Assembly (NCBI RefSeq): GCF_029937575.1 | Contig: NZ_JAPYPS010000005.1 | Location: forward strand, 1 to 64,000 | Direction of reading: 5' to 3' | DNA: 64,000 nt | Source of the DNA: Nocardioides sp. | GTDB taxonomy: Bacteria; Actinomycetota; Actinomycetes; Propionibacteriales; Nocardioidaceae | Shown: one piece after another, positions 11,287 through 58,168 of the stretch | Layout of the letters: every line of letters starts with the position of its first letter | Numbering within the stretch: the first letter of the stretch is position 1 | Translations under genes and position numbers: made by a program | The notes under the pieces: generated by a model | Databases searched by the model: none | Told to the model about the DNA's origin: nothing | What the model saw: only the letters and a program-made list of their open reading frames with translations

Positions 11287-11327
11287 GACGTCACTCTCGT
11301 GACTCGGATGCGACGTGACTATCGGCA

Positions 11328-11344
11328 GTTCCGTGCGCCGGAAC
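11328..11344. promoter_or_regulatory. IclR-type box 1, divergent promoter
   Basis: GTTCCGTGCGCCGGAAC is a perfect 6-bp inverted repeat with a 5-bp spacer. It lies 41 bp from the ATG of the leftward SDR and 42 bp from the ATG of the rightward monooxygenase, the same geometry as at 24199. The regulator is presumed to be one of the two IclR proteins in the island. Confidence 0.8.
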
Positions 11345-11386
11345 CAGCGAGCACGTCGTGGAGGGATCCTCGCCACCATCACTGTC

Positions 11387-18038: not shown

Positions 18039-18109
18039 GGGGCTCTCCTTCGAGCGGGGACGGGGCGCGGCCGAACCTAGACCCGGTGGCGGTCGGTGTG
18101 CGGTGGGAT

Positions 18110-18126
18110 GTTCCGGGCTCCGGAAC
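18110..18126. promoter_or_regulatory. IclR-type box 2, divergent promoter
   Basis: GTTCCGGGCTCCGGAAC is a perfect inverted repeat. Rightward, a -10 hexamer TAGCGT lies at 18155-18160 and the ATG of the MaoC-like gene follows after six bases, so that transcript should be leaderless. Leftward, the CoA-transferase has a leader and a normal ribosome site. Confidence 0.82.
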
Positions 18127-18166
18127 CTTGCCGATCGGGCGCGCGATGGATCTCTAGCGTGAGGGC

Positions 18167-23374: not shown

Positions 23375-24157
23375 TCAGCGACCGGCGAACGTCGGCGTGG
23401 TGCGGGTGGCGAACCCCGCCAGCCCGACGGCCAGGTCGTCGGACCCCATGATCTCGGCGAGGGCCCGGTCGCTCTCGTGCCAGAGCTGCTCCTCGCCCAG
23501 GGAGAAGGAGCGGTCACACACGCGTCGGCTGGCGCGGACGGCGAGCGGCCCGGCCGCAGCGACGCGGCGGGCGCGGTCGAGGGCCGTGGCGAGGGCGTCG
23601 CCGTCGACGAGCGTGCCGACGAGCCCGAGCTGGTGCGCGCGGGAGGCGCCAATGGGCTCGCCGGTGAGCAGCATGTCCATCGCCGCGGCCCGGCCGACGG
23701 CCTGGGGCAGCCGGAACAGCCCGCCGGCGCCGGCGACCAGGCCCCACCTCACCTCGGCCAGGGCGAAGGAGGAGCGTCGGGTGGCCACGACGAGGTCGCA
23801 GGCCAGCACGATCTCGAGTCCCCCGGAAGTGGCGAGACCGTCGACGGCCGCGACCCAAGGCTTGGTGCGGGGGTAGGTGACGAAACCGGCGAAGCCGCCG
23901 CGCTCGGTGGCGGCTTGGTCGCCTCCGCCGAACTCGTCCTCGATCGTGCGGAGGTCATGACCCGCGCAGAACACCGGTCGAGGCTCGGTGACGGCTGCGG
24001 TGAGCACGGCGACGCGGAGCTGGGGATCCTCCTCGACCTGGTCGACGGCTGCCCCGAGCGCCCGGGCCAGAGGCCCGTCGAAGGCGTTGCGGGCCTCGGG
24101 TCGGTTCAGCCGGACGACGGCCACGTGGCCGTGCTTCTCCACCGCGACACTGGACAT
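23375..24157 (-). CDS. Enoyl-CoA hydratase/isomerase family protein
   Basis: This 260-residue crotonase-fold enzyme has NRPEARNAF, the oxyanion strand PRPVFCAGHDL, VDGLATSGGLEIVLACDLVVA and the helix EVRWGLVAGAGG. It is the first gene of the leftward operon (hydratase, SDR-fold protein, double CoA-transferase, MFS). Its ATG follows TACGGT (24164-24169, minus strand) by six bases without a ribosome site, so it should be translated from a leaderless message. The IclR-type box lies 41 bp upstream. Confidence 0.9.
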   Translation of the reverse strand: MSSVAVEKHGHVAVVRLNRPEARNAFDGPLARALGAAVDQVEEDPQLRVAVLTAAVTEPRPVFCAGHDLRTIEDEFGGGDQAATERGGFAGFVTYPRTKPWVAAVDGLATSGGLEIVLACDLVVATRRSSFALAEVRWGLVAGAGGLFRLPQAVGRAAAMDMLLTGEPIGASRAHQLGLVGTLVDGDALATALDRARRVAAAGPLAVRASRRVCDRSFSLGEEQLWHESDRALAEIMGSDDLAVGLAGFATRTTPTFAGR

Positions 24158-24198
24158 GGCAGGACCGTAGGACCGCGGGCAGGGCGATCTCAGCGGCC

Positions 24199-24215
24199 TT
24201 TCCGGCGGCTGGAAC
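24199..24215. promoter_or_regulatory. IclR-type box 3 between two leaderless promoters
   Basis: TTTCCGGCGGCTGGAAC matches the island consensus GTTCCR-N5-YGGAAC with one mismatch. On both sides a TACGGT hexamer (24246-24251 rightward, 24164-24169 leftward) is followed after six bases by a start codon, and the box is 41-42 bp from both starts. This nearly perfect mirror arrangement supports bidirectional control by one bound regulator. Confidence 0.82.
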
Positions 24216-24257
24216 GACGTCGTCCGCGATCCGCCGTAGCGGCCCTACGGTGCGTGG

Positions 24258-24680
24258 GTGACCGAGATCCGAGCCCACGCCGAGGCGCTGCGTGCCCACG
24301 TCGGCGCCCGGGGGGCGCCGGAGACGAGAGAGATCGAGCGCGGTGCCCTGCGTAAGTTCGCGGTCGCGACCGGCGATCCTCACGCCGCGCACCACGGTGC
24401 GGTCGCGGCCCCGACGTACGTCGCCGCGCTGCGCTCGCCGCTCCCGCCGCTGCCCGAGCCCGACGAGCCGTTCCGCAGCCACCTGCACACCAACGACGAG
24501 CTGGAGCTGCACGCCCCGATCCGCGCCGGCGACGTGGTCGAGACGACGTGCGAGCTGACCGACGTGTTCGTCAAGGAGGGCCGCTCGGGGCCGATGCTCT
24601 TCACTCAGGTGACCTTCACCACCACCCGTGACGGCGAGCCGGTCAGCACGGTGGCGTGGACCGAGGTGCAGTACGGATGA
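24258..24680 (+). CDS. MaoC-like dehydratase, non-catalytic half
   Basis: This 140-residue protein of the FAS1-type dehydratase class has IERGALRKFAVATGDPH, HTNDELELHAPIRAGDVVE, and FVKEGRSGPMLFTQV. The hydratase Asp/His pair is absent, so it would be the structural partner of the next gene. The GTG at 24258 follows TACGGT by six bases (leaderless). The stop overlaps the next ATG (ATGA). Confidence 0.85.
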   Translation: MTEIRAHAEALRAHVGARGAPETREIERGALRKFAVATGDPHAAHHGAVAAPTYVAALRSPLPPLPEPDEPFRSHLHTNDELELHAPIRAGDVVETTCELTDVFVKEGRSGPMLFTQVTFTTTRDGEPVSTVAWTEVQYG

Positions 24681-31119: not shown

Positions 31120-31193
31120 CGGCTCCGACCTGTGGGCAGCTGAAACGTCATGGACTGCAATATGGGGGTGCTGCCGAGGGAGGGCCGCTCTGC

Positions 31194-31210
31194 GTTCCAG
31201 CGCCCGGAAC
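31194..31210. promoter_or_regulatory. IclR-type box 4, divergent promoter
   Basis: GTTCCAGCGCCCGGAAC matches the island consensus. It lies between the leftward alcohol dehydrogenase (74 bp to its ATG) and the rightward dioxygenase beta subunit (75 bp to its ATG), again in the centre. CAAGGT at 31240-31245 stands at the usual distance (about 30 bp) for a -10 element. Confidence 0.78.
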
Positions 31211-31285
31211 CGGCCGTGGTCGCCGCTCTGCCGACCCGCCAAGGTGATCCTCGCCCACAGGTGTGCCCGCTCAAGGAGGACGACG

Positions 31286-32679: not shown

Positions 32680-32696
32680 GTTCCGGCCACCGGAAC
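32680..32696. promoter_or_regulatory. IclR-type box 5 before iclR
   Basis: GTTCCGGCCACCGGAAC is a perfect inverted repeat, 85 bp before the iclR start, with GAGACT at 32725-32730 as a possible -10 at the spacing seen for other boxes. A second short palindrome, GAACGATTGTTC (32709-32720), follows. Control of the regulator by its own box family suggests autoregulation. Confidence 0.8.
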
Positions 32697-32781
32697 CCGG
32701 CAGGAACTGAACGATTGTTCGGGAGAGACTCGAGTGGTGCTCGTCACTCACGAGGCCCGACCCTGGTCGTTGGAGGTTTGC

Positions 32782-33606
32782 ATGATCGACACGTTGGAAG
32801 CACCCGAGGTGGCCGAAAGGGCCTCCGCAGGCGAGACCGAGGCAGCGGCGCAGTCGTCGGCTTCCAAGACGCTCGCCCTGCTCGAGGCGATCACCAGGTC
32901 CGGGACCACGACGTTCGGCGTCACCGAGGTGGCCGCCGAGATCGGGGTGCCGAAAAGCACCGCGCACCGCCTGCTCAAGACGCTCGAGGGCCACGGTTTC
33001 GTGGGACGCAGCGGCGCTCGCTACCGTGTCGGCGGCTCGTTCTTCGAGCTCGTCGAGGCCGCGCGCTGGTCGGAGTTCGGCGAGCTGCGCGACGTCTCGC
33101 CGCGCCCCCTCGGCTGGCTCTTCGAGCGGGCTGACGCGATCGCGGTGCACATCGCGGTGCTCAGCGGCTCCGACGTGCTCTATCTCGACAAGCTGACCAG
33201 GCCGGCCGGCACCCGCCTCCCCAGTCGGGTCGGGGGCCGGTTCCCGGCGTCCTGCACCGCCCTTGGCAAAGCGATGCTCGCCTTCGGTCCAGGCGCTACC
33301 GTGCAGCGGGTGATCGACCAGCCGATGGCCCGCGCGACGCCCTACTCGGTCGTGCAGCGGCGGCAGTTCGTAGACCAGCTGACCTCGGCGCGTCGCACCG
33401 GATGGGCCGTGGAGCGCGAGGAGTCCTGCCACGGCACGATCTGCGTAGCCGCGCCGGTGCTGCACGGGGGCCGCGCCGTCGCAGCGGTCTCGCTGTGCGT
33501 GCCGACGATGGGCCTCGGTCGCGTCGCCGAGCAGCGGCTCGGCTCCTTCGGTCGACTCGCCGCGGAGGCCGCCCACCAGGTCGGCGAGCTGCTGCCCGCG
33601 TCGTGA
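32782..33606 (+). CDS. IclR-family transcriptional regulator
   Basis: This DNA-binding regulator of 274 residues has an N-terminal winged helix (about 30-90; TEVAAEIGVPKSTAHRLLKT) and a C-terminal effector domain with the YLDKLTRPAGTRLPSRVGGR and PASCTALGKAMLA signature segments. It has a longer than usual acidic and Ala-rich N terminus. It is coupled to a CoA ligase gene (GTGA overlap) and stands in the middle of the catabolic island. With box 5 upstream, it is a prime candidate to bind the GTTCCR-N5-YGGAAC boxes. The effector is probably a pathway intermediate. Confidence 0.92.
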   Translation: MIDTLEAPEVAERASAGETEAAAQSSASKTLALLEAITRSGTTTFGVTEVAAEIGVPKSTAHRLLKTLEGHGFVGRSGARYRVGGSFFELVEAARWSEFGELRDVSPRPLGWLFERADAIAVHIAVLSGSDVLYLDKLTRPAGTRLPSRVGGRFPASCTALGKAMLAFGPGATVQRVIDQPMARATPYSVVQRRQFVDQLTSARRTGWAVEREESCHGTICVAAPVLHGGRAVAAVSLCVPTMGLGRVAEQRLGSFGRLAAEAAHQVGELLPAS

Positions 33607-35199: not shown

Positions 35200-35216
35200 G
35201 TTCCGACGCCTAGAAC
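35200..35216. promoter_or_regulatory. IclR-type box 6 before the dioxygenase alpha operon
   Basis: GTTCCGACGCCTAGAAC keeps the full left arm and differs from the consensus right arm at one base. CATATT at 35246-35251 is a good -10 candidate at the usual distance. The first gene, at 35288, follows. Confidence 0.72.
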
Positions 35217-35287
35217 ACGTCCTGACGTGCGCTGTCGCGCTGCGCCATATTCGCCGGGTACGTCCCCCAGCAAGCGAAAGGTGGGCC

Positions 35288-37567: not shown

Positions 37568-37584
37568 GTTCCAACCGCCGGAAC
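37568..37584. promoter_or_regulatory. IclR-type box 7 before the ABC importer operon
   Basis: GTTCCAACCGCCGGAAC matches the consensus, 63 bp before the GTG of the first transporter gene. CACACT at 37615-37620 is at the usual -10 distance. A weaker, one-armed copy lies at 37466. Uptake would thus be co-induced with the catabolic enzymes. Confidence 0.78.
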
Positions 37585-37647
37585 TTCGCATGGAGCCTGA
37601 AATGTCGCCCACGTCACACTGCAGCACCGAGCACCAGGAGGACCACC

Positions 37648-42674: not shown

Positions 42675-42691
42675 GTTCCACGGGGCAGAAC
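42675..42691. promoter_or_regulatory. IclR-type box 8 before the ferredoxin genes
   Basis: GTTCCACGGGGCAGAAC keeps both arms except for one right-arm base, 63 bp before the GTG of the first Rieske ferredoxin. GAGACT (42721-42726) may be the -10; the same hexamer is used at box 5. Confidence 0.7.
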
Positions 42692-42754
42692 GTGGCCTGG
42701 GGTGCGCCCCCGCCCGCAGCGAGACTTCACGACATGACAGCGAAAGGATCCACG

Positions 42755-43439: not shown

Positions 43440-43456
43440 GTTCCAGCCAGCGGTAC
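43440..43456. promoter_or_regulatory. IclR-type box 9 before the ferredoxin reductase
   Basis: GTTCCAGCCAGCGGTAC matches the consensus with one mismatch in the right arm and lies 42 bp before the GTG of the reductase gene, the same distance as at the leaderless promoters. Confidence 0.65.
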
Positions 43457-43498
43457 TCCGCGTTGTCGCGGTCACGGCGCGAGACGAAGGTGGACGTC

Positions 43499-44689
43499 GT
43501 GAGCATCCTCGTCGTCGGCGCCTCCGTCGCAGGTCTTCGCACAGTCCAGGCCTTGCGCATGAAGGGGTATTCCGGACCCATCACCCTGCTCGGCGAGGAG
43601 CCGCACCCGCCCTACGACAAGCCGCCGCTCTCCAAGGAGATGCTGCTGCCCGACGGCGACGGGGAAGCCATCCTTCTGGCCACCGAGGAGCAGCTGACCG
43701 AGCTCGACGTCGACCTCCGCCTCGGTGTCCGAGCGGCCGCGCTGGACGTCGCCGCCCGCACCGTGACGACCGTGGATGGCGAGGCGGTCGGCTTCGAGCG
43801 GCTCGTGATCGCCACCGGTGCCACCCCGCGCCGGCTGCCCGGCACCGAGCACCTCGCCGGGGTGCACACGATCCGCACTGCCGAGGACGCCGTAGCGTTG
43901 CGCACCGCGCTTCCTGGGGCCTCCGACGTGGTGGTCGTCGGGGCAGGCTTCATCGGCGCCGAGTTCGCTGCCGCGGTTCGTCTGCACGGGGCCACCGCGA
44001 CCCTGGTGGAGGCCCAGACTGTGCCGCTGGCCCACGTGCTCGGCGCCGAGGTCGGGCGGCGTCTCGCCGACATCCACGCAGCACAGGGCAACACGCTCCT
44101 CACCGGCATCGGCGTGGCCCACATCGAGGGGGACGAACGCGTGCAGGCCGTCGTGCTGACCGACGGACGGCGACTCCCGGCGGACCTGGTCGTGGTCGGG
44201 ATCGGCGCCGTCCCCGCCACCGACTGGCTGGAGTCGTCAGGGCTGCCGATCGCCGACGGGGTGGAATGCGAGGCCGACCTGCGCGTGATCGGCACCGACG
44301 GCATCTACGCCGCCGGTGACGTCGCCCGGTGGCCGCACGCCCACTACGGCTTCGACGTGCGCATCGAGCACTGGACCAACGCCAACGAGCACGCCGACCT
44401 GGTCGCGTCCGCGATCACCGGCTCGCCGCCGCCGCGCACCCAGCTGCCCTACGTCTGGTCCGACCAGTACGGCCACCGGATCCAGATCGTCGGGCGCCCA
44501 AACATGGGTCGCTCCGCTCACCTGGTCGGCACCGTCGCCGATGGCGACCTGCTCGCGGCCTTCACCGACGAGGGTGGTGCGCTCGTCGGTGCCGTCGTGG
44601 TCGACGACGTCCGCGCGTTCATGAAATGCCGCAAGGCGATCGCGGCCCGCGCCCCGTGGACCGGCGTCGGACTCGTCGCGACCCGCTGA
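43499..44689 (+). CDS. FAD-dependent ferredoxin reductase (BphG/rubredoxin-reductase type)
   Basis: The protein transfers electrons from NADH to the Rieske ferredoxins. The 396-residue protein has GASVAGLRTVQALR (FAD), PYDKPPLSKEML, the NAD motif VVGAGFIGAEFAA, and the C-terminal GIYAAGDVARWPH (FAD). The GTG at 43499 follows GAAGGTGG; a GTG at 43490 is an alternative. With 42755 and 43078 it supplies the electron chain of the dioxygenase at 36019/31286. Confidence 0.92.
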   Translation: MSILVVGASVAGLRTVQALRMKGYSGPITLLGEEPHPPYDKPPLSKEMLLPDGDGEAILLATEEQLTELDVDLRLGVRAAALDVAARTVTTVDGEAVGFERLVIATGATPRRLPGTEHLAGVHTIRTAEDAVALRTALPGASDVVVVGAGFIGAEFAAAVRLHGATATLVEAQTVPLAHVLGAEVGRRLADIHAAQGNTLLTGIGVAHIEGDERVQAVVLTDGRRLPADLVVVGIGAVPATDWLESSGLPIADGVECEADLRVIGTDGIYAAGDVARWPHAHYGFDVRIEHWTNANEHADLVASAITGSPPPRTQLPYVWSDQYGHRIQIVGRPNMGRSAHLVGTVADGDLLAAFTDEGGALVGAVVVDDVRAFMKCRKAIAARAPWTGVGLVATR

Positions 44690-47936: not shown

Positions 47937-48776
47937 TCACAGCTCGTGCGGGAAGTAGTGCGTCTTGCCCTGGGCCATCTCGGCCTTGCAGACCCGGGCG
48001 ATCTGGGCGGCGGTGTCGCGCAGGGCGTTCTGCACTTTCGCCCCGACGTCCGCGCCGGTCGCGTAGGTGACCGAGACGGCGCCGACCGCGAAGTCGTGGA
48101 TGATGATCGGCACGGCCGAGGACGACACCCCGGGTTGGGCCTCGTCGCGCTCGTGGGCGATGGCGTCGCCACGCACCTTGCGCAGCTCGATGACGAGCTC
48201 GTCGACGTCGGTGACGGTGGCGCCGCTCATCAACGGCATGGGACGGGGCAAGAATGACTCGAGGTCCTCGAGGTTCTCCGAGGCAAGCAGGATCTTGCCG
48301 AGGGCGGTGGCGTTGGCGGGCAGTCGGGAGCCGACCCCGGCGCGGTGCTCGGGGGCACCGTGCCGGGCCATCTTGTCGAGGAAGAGCACGTCGAACTGGC
48401 GCAGGACGCCGAGCTCGACGCTCAGCCCCGACCACCGGTGCAGCGCGGCGAGGAACGGTAGGGCGTTGTCGCGCATGCCGCCGGCGGGGGTGTTGACGGC
48501 GAGCTGCAACAGGTCGAGGCTGACGACGTAGCCGGAGCGGTGGGTCTCGACCGCACCGAGATCGATGAGTCGGGCGATGAGTCGGTGCACCGTCGACTTG
48601 GGCAGCCCCGAGGCCCGTGAGAGCTCACTGAGGGTCATCACCCGCGACTCGGAGTTGAACGCCCGCAGCAGGTCGAAGGCCTTGGACAGGATCGAGGGAG
48701 GCTCGGCGGCAGGAACTGAGCGCACCTCGTCGTCCACTCCTCGCACCGTCCCGGGCTCGTCTGTGATGCCGGTCAT
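47937..48776 (-). CDS. IclR-family transcriptional regulator
   Basis: This second IclR protein of 279 residues has a winged helix (about 30-90; LSELSRASGLPKSTVHRLIARL) and an effector domain (FLDKMARHGAPEHRAGVGSR, PANATALGKILLA, VGAVSVTYATGADVGA). It is only distantly similar to the one at 32782. It is transcribed away from the ACMSD-like gene, with IclR-type box 10 between them. Its own ATG at 48776 lacks a clear ribosome site. It may share the same box family or control only the adjacent ring-fission operon. Confidence 0.9.
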   Translation of the reverse strand: MTGITDEPGTVRGVDDEVRSVPAAEPPSILSKAFDLLRAFNSESRVMTLSELSRASGLPKSTVHRLIARLIDLGAVETHRSGYVVSLDLLQLAVNTPAGGMRDNALPFLAALHRWSGLSVELGVLRQFDVLFLDKMARHGAPEHRAGVGSRLPANATALGKILLASENLEDLESFLPRPMPLMSGATVTDVDELVIELRKVRGDAIAHERDEAQPGVSSSAVPIIIHDFAVGAVSVTYATGADVGAKVQNALRDTAAQIARVCKAEMAQGKTHYFPHEL

Positions 48777-48811
48777 GGTAGCCGAGCAGATGTTCGGGGG
48801 CGGTGGCTCGT

Positions 48812-48828
48812 GTTCCGGTCCCTGGAAC
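48812..48828. promoter_or_regulatory. IclR-type box 10, divergent promoter
   Basis: GTTCCGGTCCCTGGAAC is an exact match to the consensus. Rightward, TAGCGT (48859-48864) is followed after six bases by the ATG at 48871, so the amidohydrolase message should be leaderless. Leftward, the iclR gene starts 35 bp away. Confidence 0.82.
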
Positions 48829-48870
48829 GGGTCCTGATCGGGCCACGGGGTGCGCTCATAGCGTCGGCGC

Positions 48871-51864: not shown

Positions 51865-51907
51865 CAGCGCAGGCTATCGACCTCGTGCGAGTCCACCCGC
51901 GCCCGCC

Positions 51908-51924
51908 GTTCCGTGGACCGGAAC
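51908..51924. promoter_or_regulatory. IclR-type box 11, divergent promoter
   Basis: GTTCCGTGGACCGGAAC is a perfect inverted repeat, 43 bp from the GTG of the phosphatase and 42 bp from the ATG of the hydratase. GACCCT at 51955-51960 and TAGCCT at 51871-51876 (minus) are the -10 candidates, each six bases from its start codon. Confidence 0.82.
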
Positions 51925-51966
51925 CGCGGGAAGCCCCGAAGCGGGCGTACCCCCGACCCTGGGTGC

Positions 51967-57562: not shown

Positions 57563-58168
57563 TCAGGTGGTTGGCGCGGCCCGGACCGTCGCCAGGGCGA
57601 GCTCGCGGTAGCGCTCGGCCATCGTCTCGGGGGAGGTAGTGCCGCCGAGGCGGTACCAGGACGCGATCGAGTAGCCCATCTCGATCACGGCGCGCACGGC
57701 CTCGCGCGGGTATGGCGTCGAGAACTCACCGCTGGTCACACCGTGGTCGACCACCTCGCGGAAGAGCGCTTCCTGCTCGTCGCGCAGGGCCACGACCTCG
57801 GCGCGACCCACGTCGTCCAGGCTGCGCAGCTCCGAGGCGCCGATCAGCGCCTCGGCCTGCCGCTCGGTGTGGAAGGCGACCCAGGCCACCATCAGGGCGC
57901 CCAGCCGCTCGGTCGCGCTGGGTCCGGCGGTCTCGATGGCGGCCCGGGTCGCGGCCAGGACGTCTCCCATGGTGCGGCGCATCAGCTCCTGGAGGATGTC
58001 CTGCTTGGACGGGAAGTGGTGGTAGATCGACGCAACCGTGACGTCGGCGTCGCGGGCGATGTCGCGCATCGACGTGCCGTGGTAGCCGCGCTCGGTGAAG
58101 TTGGCGACGGCGGAGGTCACGATGACCGCCTTGCCTCCGCGCGTGGGCGCCTTCGCGGGTCGTGCCAT
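57563..58168 (-). CDS. TetR/AcrR-family transcriptional regulator
   Basis: This 201-residue repressor has an N-terminal helix-turn-helix (about 14-60; TSMRDIARDADVTVASIYHHF, then PSKQDILQELM) and an all-helical ligand domain. In actinobacteria such regulators commonly sense acyl-CoA esters and control CoA-ligase/dehydrogenase genes. TetR-type boxes lie at 57494, 58222 (its own upstream region) and 59918, all close, plus one at 6057. GAAGGAG region precedes the ATG at 58168. Confidence 0.92.
   Translation of the reverse strand: MARPAKAPTRGGKAVIVTSAVANFTERGYHGTSMRDIARDADVTVASIYHHFPSKQDILQELMRRTMGDVLAATRAAIETAGPSATERLGALMVAWVAFHTERQAEALIGASELRSLDDVGRAEVVALRDEQEALFREVVDHGVTSGEFSTPYPREAVRAVIEMGYSIASWYRLGGTTSPETMAERYRELALATVRAAPTT

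Follow-up and report, generated by a model that had tools for sequence, protein, structure and literature searches.

Regulators of the IclR family are described as repressors, activators or dual regulators, and the operators of the family's group 1 follow the consensus GKTYCRYW3-4RYGRAMC, here in its 17-bp form; tandem IclR sites are given as 18-22 nt apart (PMC8222616). According to the same source, two actinobacterial members serve aromatic pathways, i.e., NpdR of Rhodococcus opacus HL PM-1, which regulates 2,4,6-trinitrophenol utilization and has the motif GTTCMRYATMRTGAWS, and GenR of Corynebacterium glutamicum, which regulates 3-hydroxybenzoate/gentisate catabolism (PMC8222616). Leaderless genes are reported as common in Actinobacteria (PMC3160421, PMC3898074), with an average of 19.2% as judged by sequence signal (PMC3160421) and 26% of the genes with a primary start in M. 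tuberculosis, where the leaderless messages lack a Shine-Dalgarno sequence (PMC3898074).

The window, i.e., the whole stretch of 64,000 nucleotides analysed here, lies on contig 5 of a 4.35-Mb genome (GC 71%). By the domain matches of its scanned genes, the region from about 9.6 to 54.7 kb looks like an aromatic-catabolic cluster. The matches include an oxygenase set (ring-hydroxylating dioxygenase alpha and beta, two Rieske ferredoxins and a ferredoxin reductase), a LigB-type ring-cleavage dioxygenase, an alpha/beta hydrolase, FAD hydroxylases and acyl-CoA enzymes. A meta-cleavage lower pathway is represented by its hydratase and its aldolase, and the region also contains an ABC transporter gene and two genes for IclR-family regulators. 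The gene at 57563, which lies outside the stretch of boxes discussed below, has NCBIfam matches whose names are all what we take to be TetR-type, each of them below its cut-off. The features on which the analysis rests are collected in Table 1.

Table 1. Boxes, -10 elements and genes in the 64,000-nt window; genes are predicted and named by their start position or their range.
Feature	Position	Strand	Context
Central IclR-type box TTTCCGGCGGCTGGAAC	24199..24215		between divergent promoters; 1 mismatch to GTTCCR-N5-YGGAAC
-10 TACGGT, FAS1_DH-domain dehydratase promoter	24246..24251	+	first base 31 nt past box
-10 TACGGT, enoyl-CoA hydratase promoter	24164..24169	-	first base 30 nt past box
FAS1_DH_region (MaoC-like) dehydratase, predicted leaderless	24258..24680	+	GTG at predicted +1
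Enoyl-CoA hydratase/isomerase, predicted leaderless	23375..24157	-	ATG at predicted +1
Box	11328..11344		between divergent predicted leaderless genes 11286 (SDR, -) and 11387 (FAD hydroxylase, +)
-10 elements of 11328 box	11293-11298; 11374-11379	-; +	
Box	18110..18126		between 18014 (CoA-transferase, -, leader carrying a Shine-Dalgarno sequence) and 18167 (FAS1_DH, +, predicted leaderless)
-10 elements of 18110 box, TAGGTT and TAGCGT	18074-18079; 18155-18160	-; +	
Box	31194..31210		divergent pair, both with leaders: 31119 (zinc alcohol dehydrogenase, -), 31286 (ring-hydroxylating dioxygenase beta, +)
-10 elements of 31194 box	31159-31164; 31240-31245	-; +	
Box	32680..32696		upstream of second IclR gene (32782), start codon ambiguous; on its other side neither gene start nor -10
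-10 element of 32680 box	32725-32730		
Box, 1 mismatch	35200..35216		upstream of dienelactone-hydrolase-family gene 35288 (leader)
-10 element of 35200 box	35246-35251		
Box	37568..37584		precedes 37648 (leader), the ATP-binding gene of a branched-chain amino acid type ABC transporter and probably the first gene of an operon
-10 element of 37568 box	37615-37620		
Box, 1 mismatch	42675..42691		upstream of Rieske ferredoxin gene
-10 element of 42675 box	42721-42726		
Box, 1 mismatch	43440..43456		upstream of predicted leaderless ferredoxin reductase 43499
-10 element of 43440 box	43486-43491		
Box	48812..48828		between IclR gene (-) and predicted leaderless amidohydrolase 48871
-10 elements of 48812 box (TAGCGT on the amidohydrolase side)	48775-48780; 48859-48864	-; 	
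Box	51908..51924		between divergent predicted leaderless genes 51864 (Y_phosphatase3, -) and 51967 (2-keto-4-pentenoate hydratase-like, +)
-10 elements of 51908 box	51871-51876; 51955-51960	-; +	
IclR-family regulator (HTH_IclR and IclR_C domains)	47937..48776	-	leading candidate for binding to the box
Second IclR-family regulator, with a recognition helix like that of the first	32782..33606	+	alternative or additional candidate

The exact motif GTTCC-N7-GGAAC occurs eight times in the 4.35-Mb genome, seven of them within the 64-kb window, and 20 Markov-1 versions of the window contain two in total. When GTTCCR-N5-YGGAAC is searched with at most one mismatch, the genome holds 24 sites, 11 in the window (seven exact and four with one mismatch) and 13 in the other 4.29 Mb; an even spread would place at least 11 of 24 in this 1.5% of the genome with a probability of ~1e-14. 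The arms GTTCCR/YGGAAC and the 17-bp length at the 11 sites are those of the group 1 palindrome, while in this GC-rich genome the inner W positions show no A/T richness. By sequence, the box is thus classed as a predicted cluster-specific operator. Operators of the TetR/KstR and LysR types, which had also been considered for the palindrome, were discarded in view of the two IclR genes and the fit to the published IclR motif. In one related locus (L047:5811-5846) two exact boxes stand in tandem, 19 bp from centre to centre, which falls within the 18-22 nt of tandem IclR sites (PMC8222616). A second palindrome, GAAC-N4-GTTC, lies between the box and the -10 element of the second IclR gene (32709-32720) and could be the operator of that protein itself. 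A similar palindrome, GAACGAACGTTC, is at nearly the same place in the Nocardioides locus L046, none is present before the homologues in L049 and L057, and the one further occurrence in the window is inside a gene (33837).

The distance from the box to the -10 element was counted separately for promoter sides, where the box faces a gene start, and control sides, where it faces a gene end. In the window, xAnnnT lies 29-32 nt past the box on 17 of 17 promoter sides and on none of the five control sides, the chance rate of this loose motif being ~10% per five-base window beside the window's boxes. Among the relatives, in which xAnnnT was sought at 29-33 nt, the element is present on 62 of 83 promoter sides (14 stretches, nine Nocardioidaceae genomes), so that window and relatives together give 79/100 promoter sides vs. 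2/24 control sides, with 2-23/100 in other five-base windows. A further 17 loci from nine actinobacterial genera (Pseudonocardia, Gordonia, Nocardia, Streptomyces, Rhodococcus, Mycolicibacterium, Geodermatophilus, Janibacter and Nocardioides) have the element on 45 of 57 sides, with 1-10 in other five-base windows; these loci are the 24 closest minus seven already present under other handles, found by a regulator alignment query of which the best 80 of 196 matches were kept. Collapsing alike sides, such as those shared by L094/L095, L085/L091 and L088/L108 among the 17 loci, leaves 116/148 with the element (other five-base windows, 6-28/148). Over all sets, 124 of 157 promoter sides carry the element at 29-33 nt and 33 do not. 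The offset is 30 in 77 of the 124 and 31 in 33 (110/124 together), a tightness that comes partly from selection, as the search was restricted to this range.

These counts depend on gene starts taken from our own gene caller. The window and relative counts exclude boxes inside predicted genes (three in the relatives), sides less than 70 nt from the end of a stretch and gene-facing sides whose gene begins over 200 nt from the box. One box excluded in this way, L046:18979, is a mirror pair across which the gene caller had predicted a false gene. Tandem boxes remain in the counts and lower the rate. With annotated starts, the element is found on 7 of 13 gene-facing sides of the Rhodococcus erythropolis plasmid pRhX5 and on 5 of 7 of the Pseudonocardia plasmid pBCI1-2. 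As the -10 element is placed at -12 to -7 (PMC3160421, PMC3898074), the box centre falls at about -50. The -35 region of the 124 sides shows a weak T-T/G preference, TTGACA being matched at 4/6 bases in 26 of them vs. 7 expected from shuffled spacers. However, M. tuberculosis promoters overall are reported to have no conserved -35 (PMC3898074), so the weak -35 says little for activation. The arrangement looked for in an upstream activator site, with a position beyond the -35 region and a constant spacing to the -10, is thus that of the box.

At the focal pair, the earlier note had described two TACGGT hexamers, at 24164-24169 (minus) and 24246-24251 (plus), each followed after exactly six bases by a start codon without a ribosome site, and the sequence agrees base for base, the start codons being ATG at 24157 and GTG at 24258, with no Shine-Dalgarno-like 4-mer at either. 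Its gaps of 41 and 42 nt between box and starts were reproduced, as were those quoted elsewhere, both rightward (42 for 11387, 40 for 18167, 42 for 43499, 42 for 48871 and 42 for 51967) and leftward (41 for 11286 and 43 for 51864); the codon-usage gene caller picked neighbouring in-frame starts at two of these genes (43490 for 43499, 51985 for 51967). The box centre near -50 from the predicted transcription start in both directions also follows from the box-to--10 geometry, and both the sequence and the comparison lend good support to the proposal that one upstream regulator site serves a mirror-image pair of promoters. However, the box-to-start distance, offered as the constant, does not hold as such, the true constant being the distance to the -10 (xAnnnT 29-32 nt past the box), and leaderlessness stands as a sequence prediction for nine of the 17 promoters but not as a defining trait, since six have leaders and two are ambiguous. 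Beyond the sites that the note had listed, the 31194 box (both sides), the 35200 and 37568 boxes and the left sides of the 18110 and 48812 boxes share the spacing with leadered genes, and the 32680 and 42675 boxes share the box-to--10 spacing with an ambiguous start codon.

Relative to the predicted +1, the in-frame start codons on the 79 window and relative sides with a -10 element number 18 at 0, six at +1 and one at -1, with none at -2 or +2. In the window, 11 of 17 promoters have a start codon at 0 or +1, of which those upstream of 32782 and 42755 have a later start that is at least as plausible. The nine predicted leaderless genes (11286, 11387, 18167, 24157, 24258, 43499, 48871, 51864 and 51967) have TANNNT or xAnnnT ~12 bp upstream of the start and are classed as lacking a Shine-Dalgarno sequence; a Shine-Dalgarno-like 4-mer is absent in eight of them, and the one at 43499 overlaps its -10. 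The six leadered promoters are those of 31119, 31286, 35288, 37648, 18014 and the IclR gene 47937-48776. At the Rieske ferredoxin gene, an ATG (42734) stands one base after the predicted +1 and an in-frame GTG (42755) 21 nt later, and L078 has starts at these two distances as well.

The possibility that the starts 40-43 nt past the box are mis-assigned, translation beginning further in from ordinary leadered promoters, bears on this point and is regarded as quite improbable. Six of the 17 window promoters do have leaders, in-frame starts further downstream exist in some genes, and the Shine-Dalgarno-like match mentioned above lies at 43499. However, the peak of start codons at the predicted start (18 at 0 and six at +1) speaks against it, and for the ferredoxin reductase the register of box, -10 and start codon, with the box at 41-42 nt, is preserved in 9 of 11 homologues besides the window (11 of 34 matches were examined, i.e., 14 listed minus three duplicates). 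The homologues in register come from Nocardioides, Pseudonocardia, Geodermatophilus, Rhodococcus and Mycolicibacterium, and those of L082 and L057 are without the arrangement. The Rossmann motif of this protein (ILVVGAS and the like) starts within the first codons, which leaves no room for a later start and makes it difficult to dismiss a leaderless one. In a set of 45 window genes that have no box nearby, many of them probably inside operons, TANNNT is at the ~12 bp position in one and xAnnnT in two. A start codon at the predicted +1 is found beside boxes on 24/79 sides, and on 10/45 in the 17 further loci, which in view of the published 19.2% and 26% (PMC3160421, PMC3898074) suggests that this regulon is not distinguished by leaderlessness in itself.

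Divergent genes flank six of the 11 window boxes, and a -10 is present on both sides of every one of these six. Across 50 divergent boxes from the window, its relatives and the further loci, the element is on both sides in 28, on one side in 21 and on neither in one. In L046, the homologues of 24258 (75% identical, with its 42-nt box-to-start gap retained) and of 11387 are paired at one mirror box (18979), from which their starts are separated by 42 and 43 nt, whereas in the window the two genes sit in different mirror pairs, as an exchange of cassettes would give. It is possible, though we would put it a little below even odds, that one clade of actinobacterial IclR activators uses a rigid, direction-neutral module, made of the palindromic box, ~29-31 nt and xAnnnT, in which one bound regulator would drive both directions, and which would move between genes as a cassette with an optional leader, its starts readable from sequence.

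The IclR protein encoded at 47937-48776 matches PF09339 (3.5e-16; 59.1 bits, cut-off 22) and PF01614 (1.2e-25; 90.6 bits, cut-off 24), and its matches to solved structures (18 sequences) are only IclR relatives by name or unnamed regulators. Membership of the PcaR/PcaU/PobR subfamily was rejected, its TIGR02431 score of 101.7 bits being below the cut-off of 284.75. The called start overlaps the gene's own -10 (TACCATG), so the true start is probably at 48746, 48737 or 48725; the regulator genes of L078 and L080, with the same -10 position and in-frame starts 24-33 nt after the predicted +1, likewise point to a start downstream. A single-protein scan of genome contigs with the IclR gene returned no relative, and the alignment query did find relatives. 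Homologues at 1e-40 occur in nine of the 293 other genomes of the family that were searched, eight of them from the same genus as the window, and in each of the nine an exact box is no more than 5 kb from the regulator. Four of ten relatives without such a homologue still hold two or three exact boxes. An exact box is also present in 20 of the 50 loci of more distant IclR relatives, where the -10 rule is weak (11/31 sides), suggesting that the motif is common to other IclR proteins. The plasmid pRhX5 (L158), which is large, linear and typed as non-mobilizable, carries a related cluster whose IclR regulator is 64% identical.

Taken together, the results describe an IclR regulon that is widely conserved and whose promoters follow a clear rule. 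The reading that we favour, with a probability of roughly two in three, is that the box is the operator of a cluster-encoded IclR activator, probably 47937-48776, which at about -50 would aid RNA polymerase both ways. The regulator would respond to an inducer of the probable aromatic-degradation pathway and bind the box, centred ~50 bp upstream of the predicted transcription start and just upstream of the -35 region, from where it would help RNA polymerase onto promoters whose clearest element is the xAnnnT/TAnnnT -10. As the operator is palindromic, the same protein could serve a promoter on either side, and the constant upstream distance together with the palindromic site suggests an activator contacting RNA polymerase in either direction. 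The presence or absence of a leader would then be set only by where the start codon falls after a fixed start site, i.e., at +1 in about half of the promoters, the 24-kb pair included, and ~20-60 nt later in the rest.

A repressor could use the same site, such that without inducer the regulator on the box hinders both promoters, e.g., through a DNA loop or by preventing the polymerase from making its contacts upstream of the -35. The IclR family does include repressors and dual regulators (PMC8222616), one box faces the regulator's own gene, and the promoters retain some -35 similarity and so need not depend on an activator. However, the box lies wholly upstream of the -35, whereas a blocking site would be expected to overlap the promoter core, and blocking needs no such constancy as an element at offset 30 or 31 on 110 of 124 sides, so that repression seems unlikely to us. 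A mere chance alignment of common GC-rich words, for which the 13 sites outside the window with at most one mismatch could speak, can practically be dismissed, given that 1.5% of the genome holds 11 of the 24 sites, that the -10 is on 17/17 promoter sides vs. 0/5 and that the pattern is replicated in other loci.

The identity of the binding protein is a separate matter, and the boxes might be bound by the second IclR protein (32782-33606), alone or along with the first, which would be compatible with the activator reading. Both IclR genes have a box upstream, and the recognition helices are close, PKSTAHRLL in the second and PKSTVHRLI in the first. However, G229, G205, G242, G214, G187 and G217, which are six of the nine relatives carrying the first regulator, have no 1e-40 match to the second and yet contain boxes, and the fifteen loci of its 39-44% relatives hold two exact boxes, although these loci total only 55 kb. 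The separate palindrome at 32709, as a candidate operator of its own, also counts against a role at the boxes, and we consider such a role rather doubtful. The activator encoded at 47937-48776 thus remains the preferred reading, and, if true, a group of actinobacterial promoters that depend on IclR proteins would have an anchor rule, so that the box alone would predict start sites, with a leader or none, and regulon members of uncharacterised aromatic-degradation clusters. It would also provide a natural, nearly symmetric test of whether one activator between two promoters can serve both at once.

Among the titles and abstracts listed from 5.39 million open-licence papers, none describes this IclR box and promoter architecture. 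Its parts can be compared with described systems. The box shares the 17-bp form of the group 1 operators of Suvorova and Gelfand (2021), which are described as most commonly centred at -22 from gene starts and mostly between -20 and -80 (PMC8222616); unlike in that description, the window boxes are anchored to the -10 element, with the centre at about -50 from the predicted start. GenR, likewise an actinobacterial IclR regulator of an aromatic pathway, is the nearest relative listed there, with ATTCC-N7(5)-GGAAT against GTTCC-N7-GGAAC in the window, i.e., a difference in the outer base, whereas NpdR differs in its 16-bp site and its pathway (PMC8222616). The spacing of TANNNT ~12 bp upstream of the start codon is that reported for leaderless actinobacterial promoters (PMC3160421). 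Unlike these known leaderless promoters, the promoters in the window have their -10 at a fixed distance from a regulator box, an architecture which leaderless and leadered genes share.
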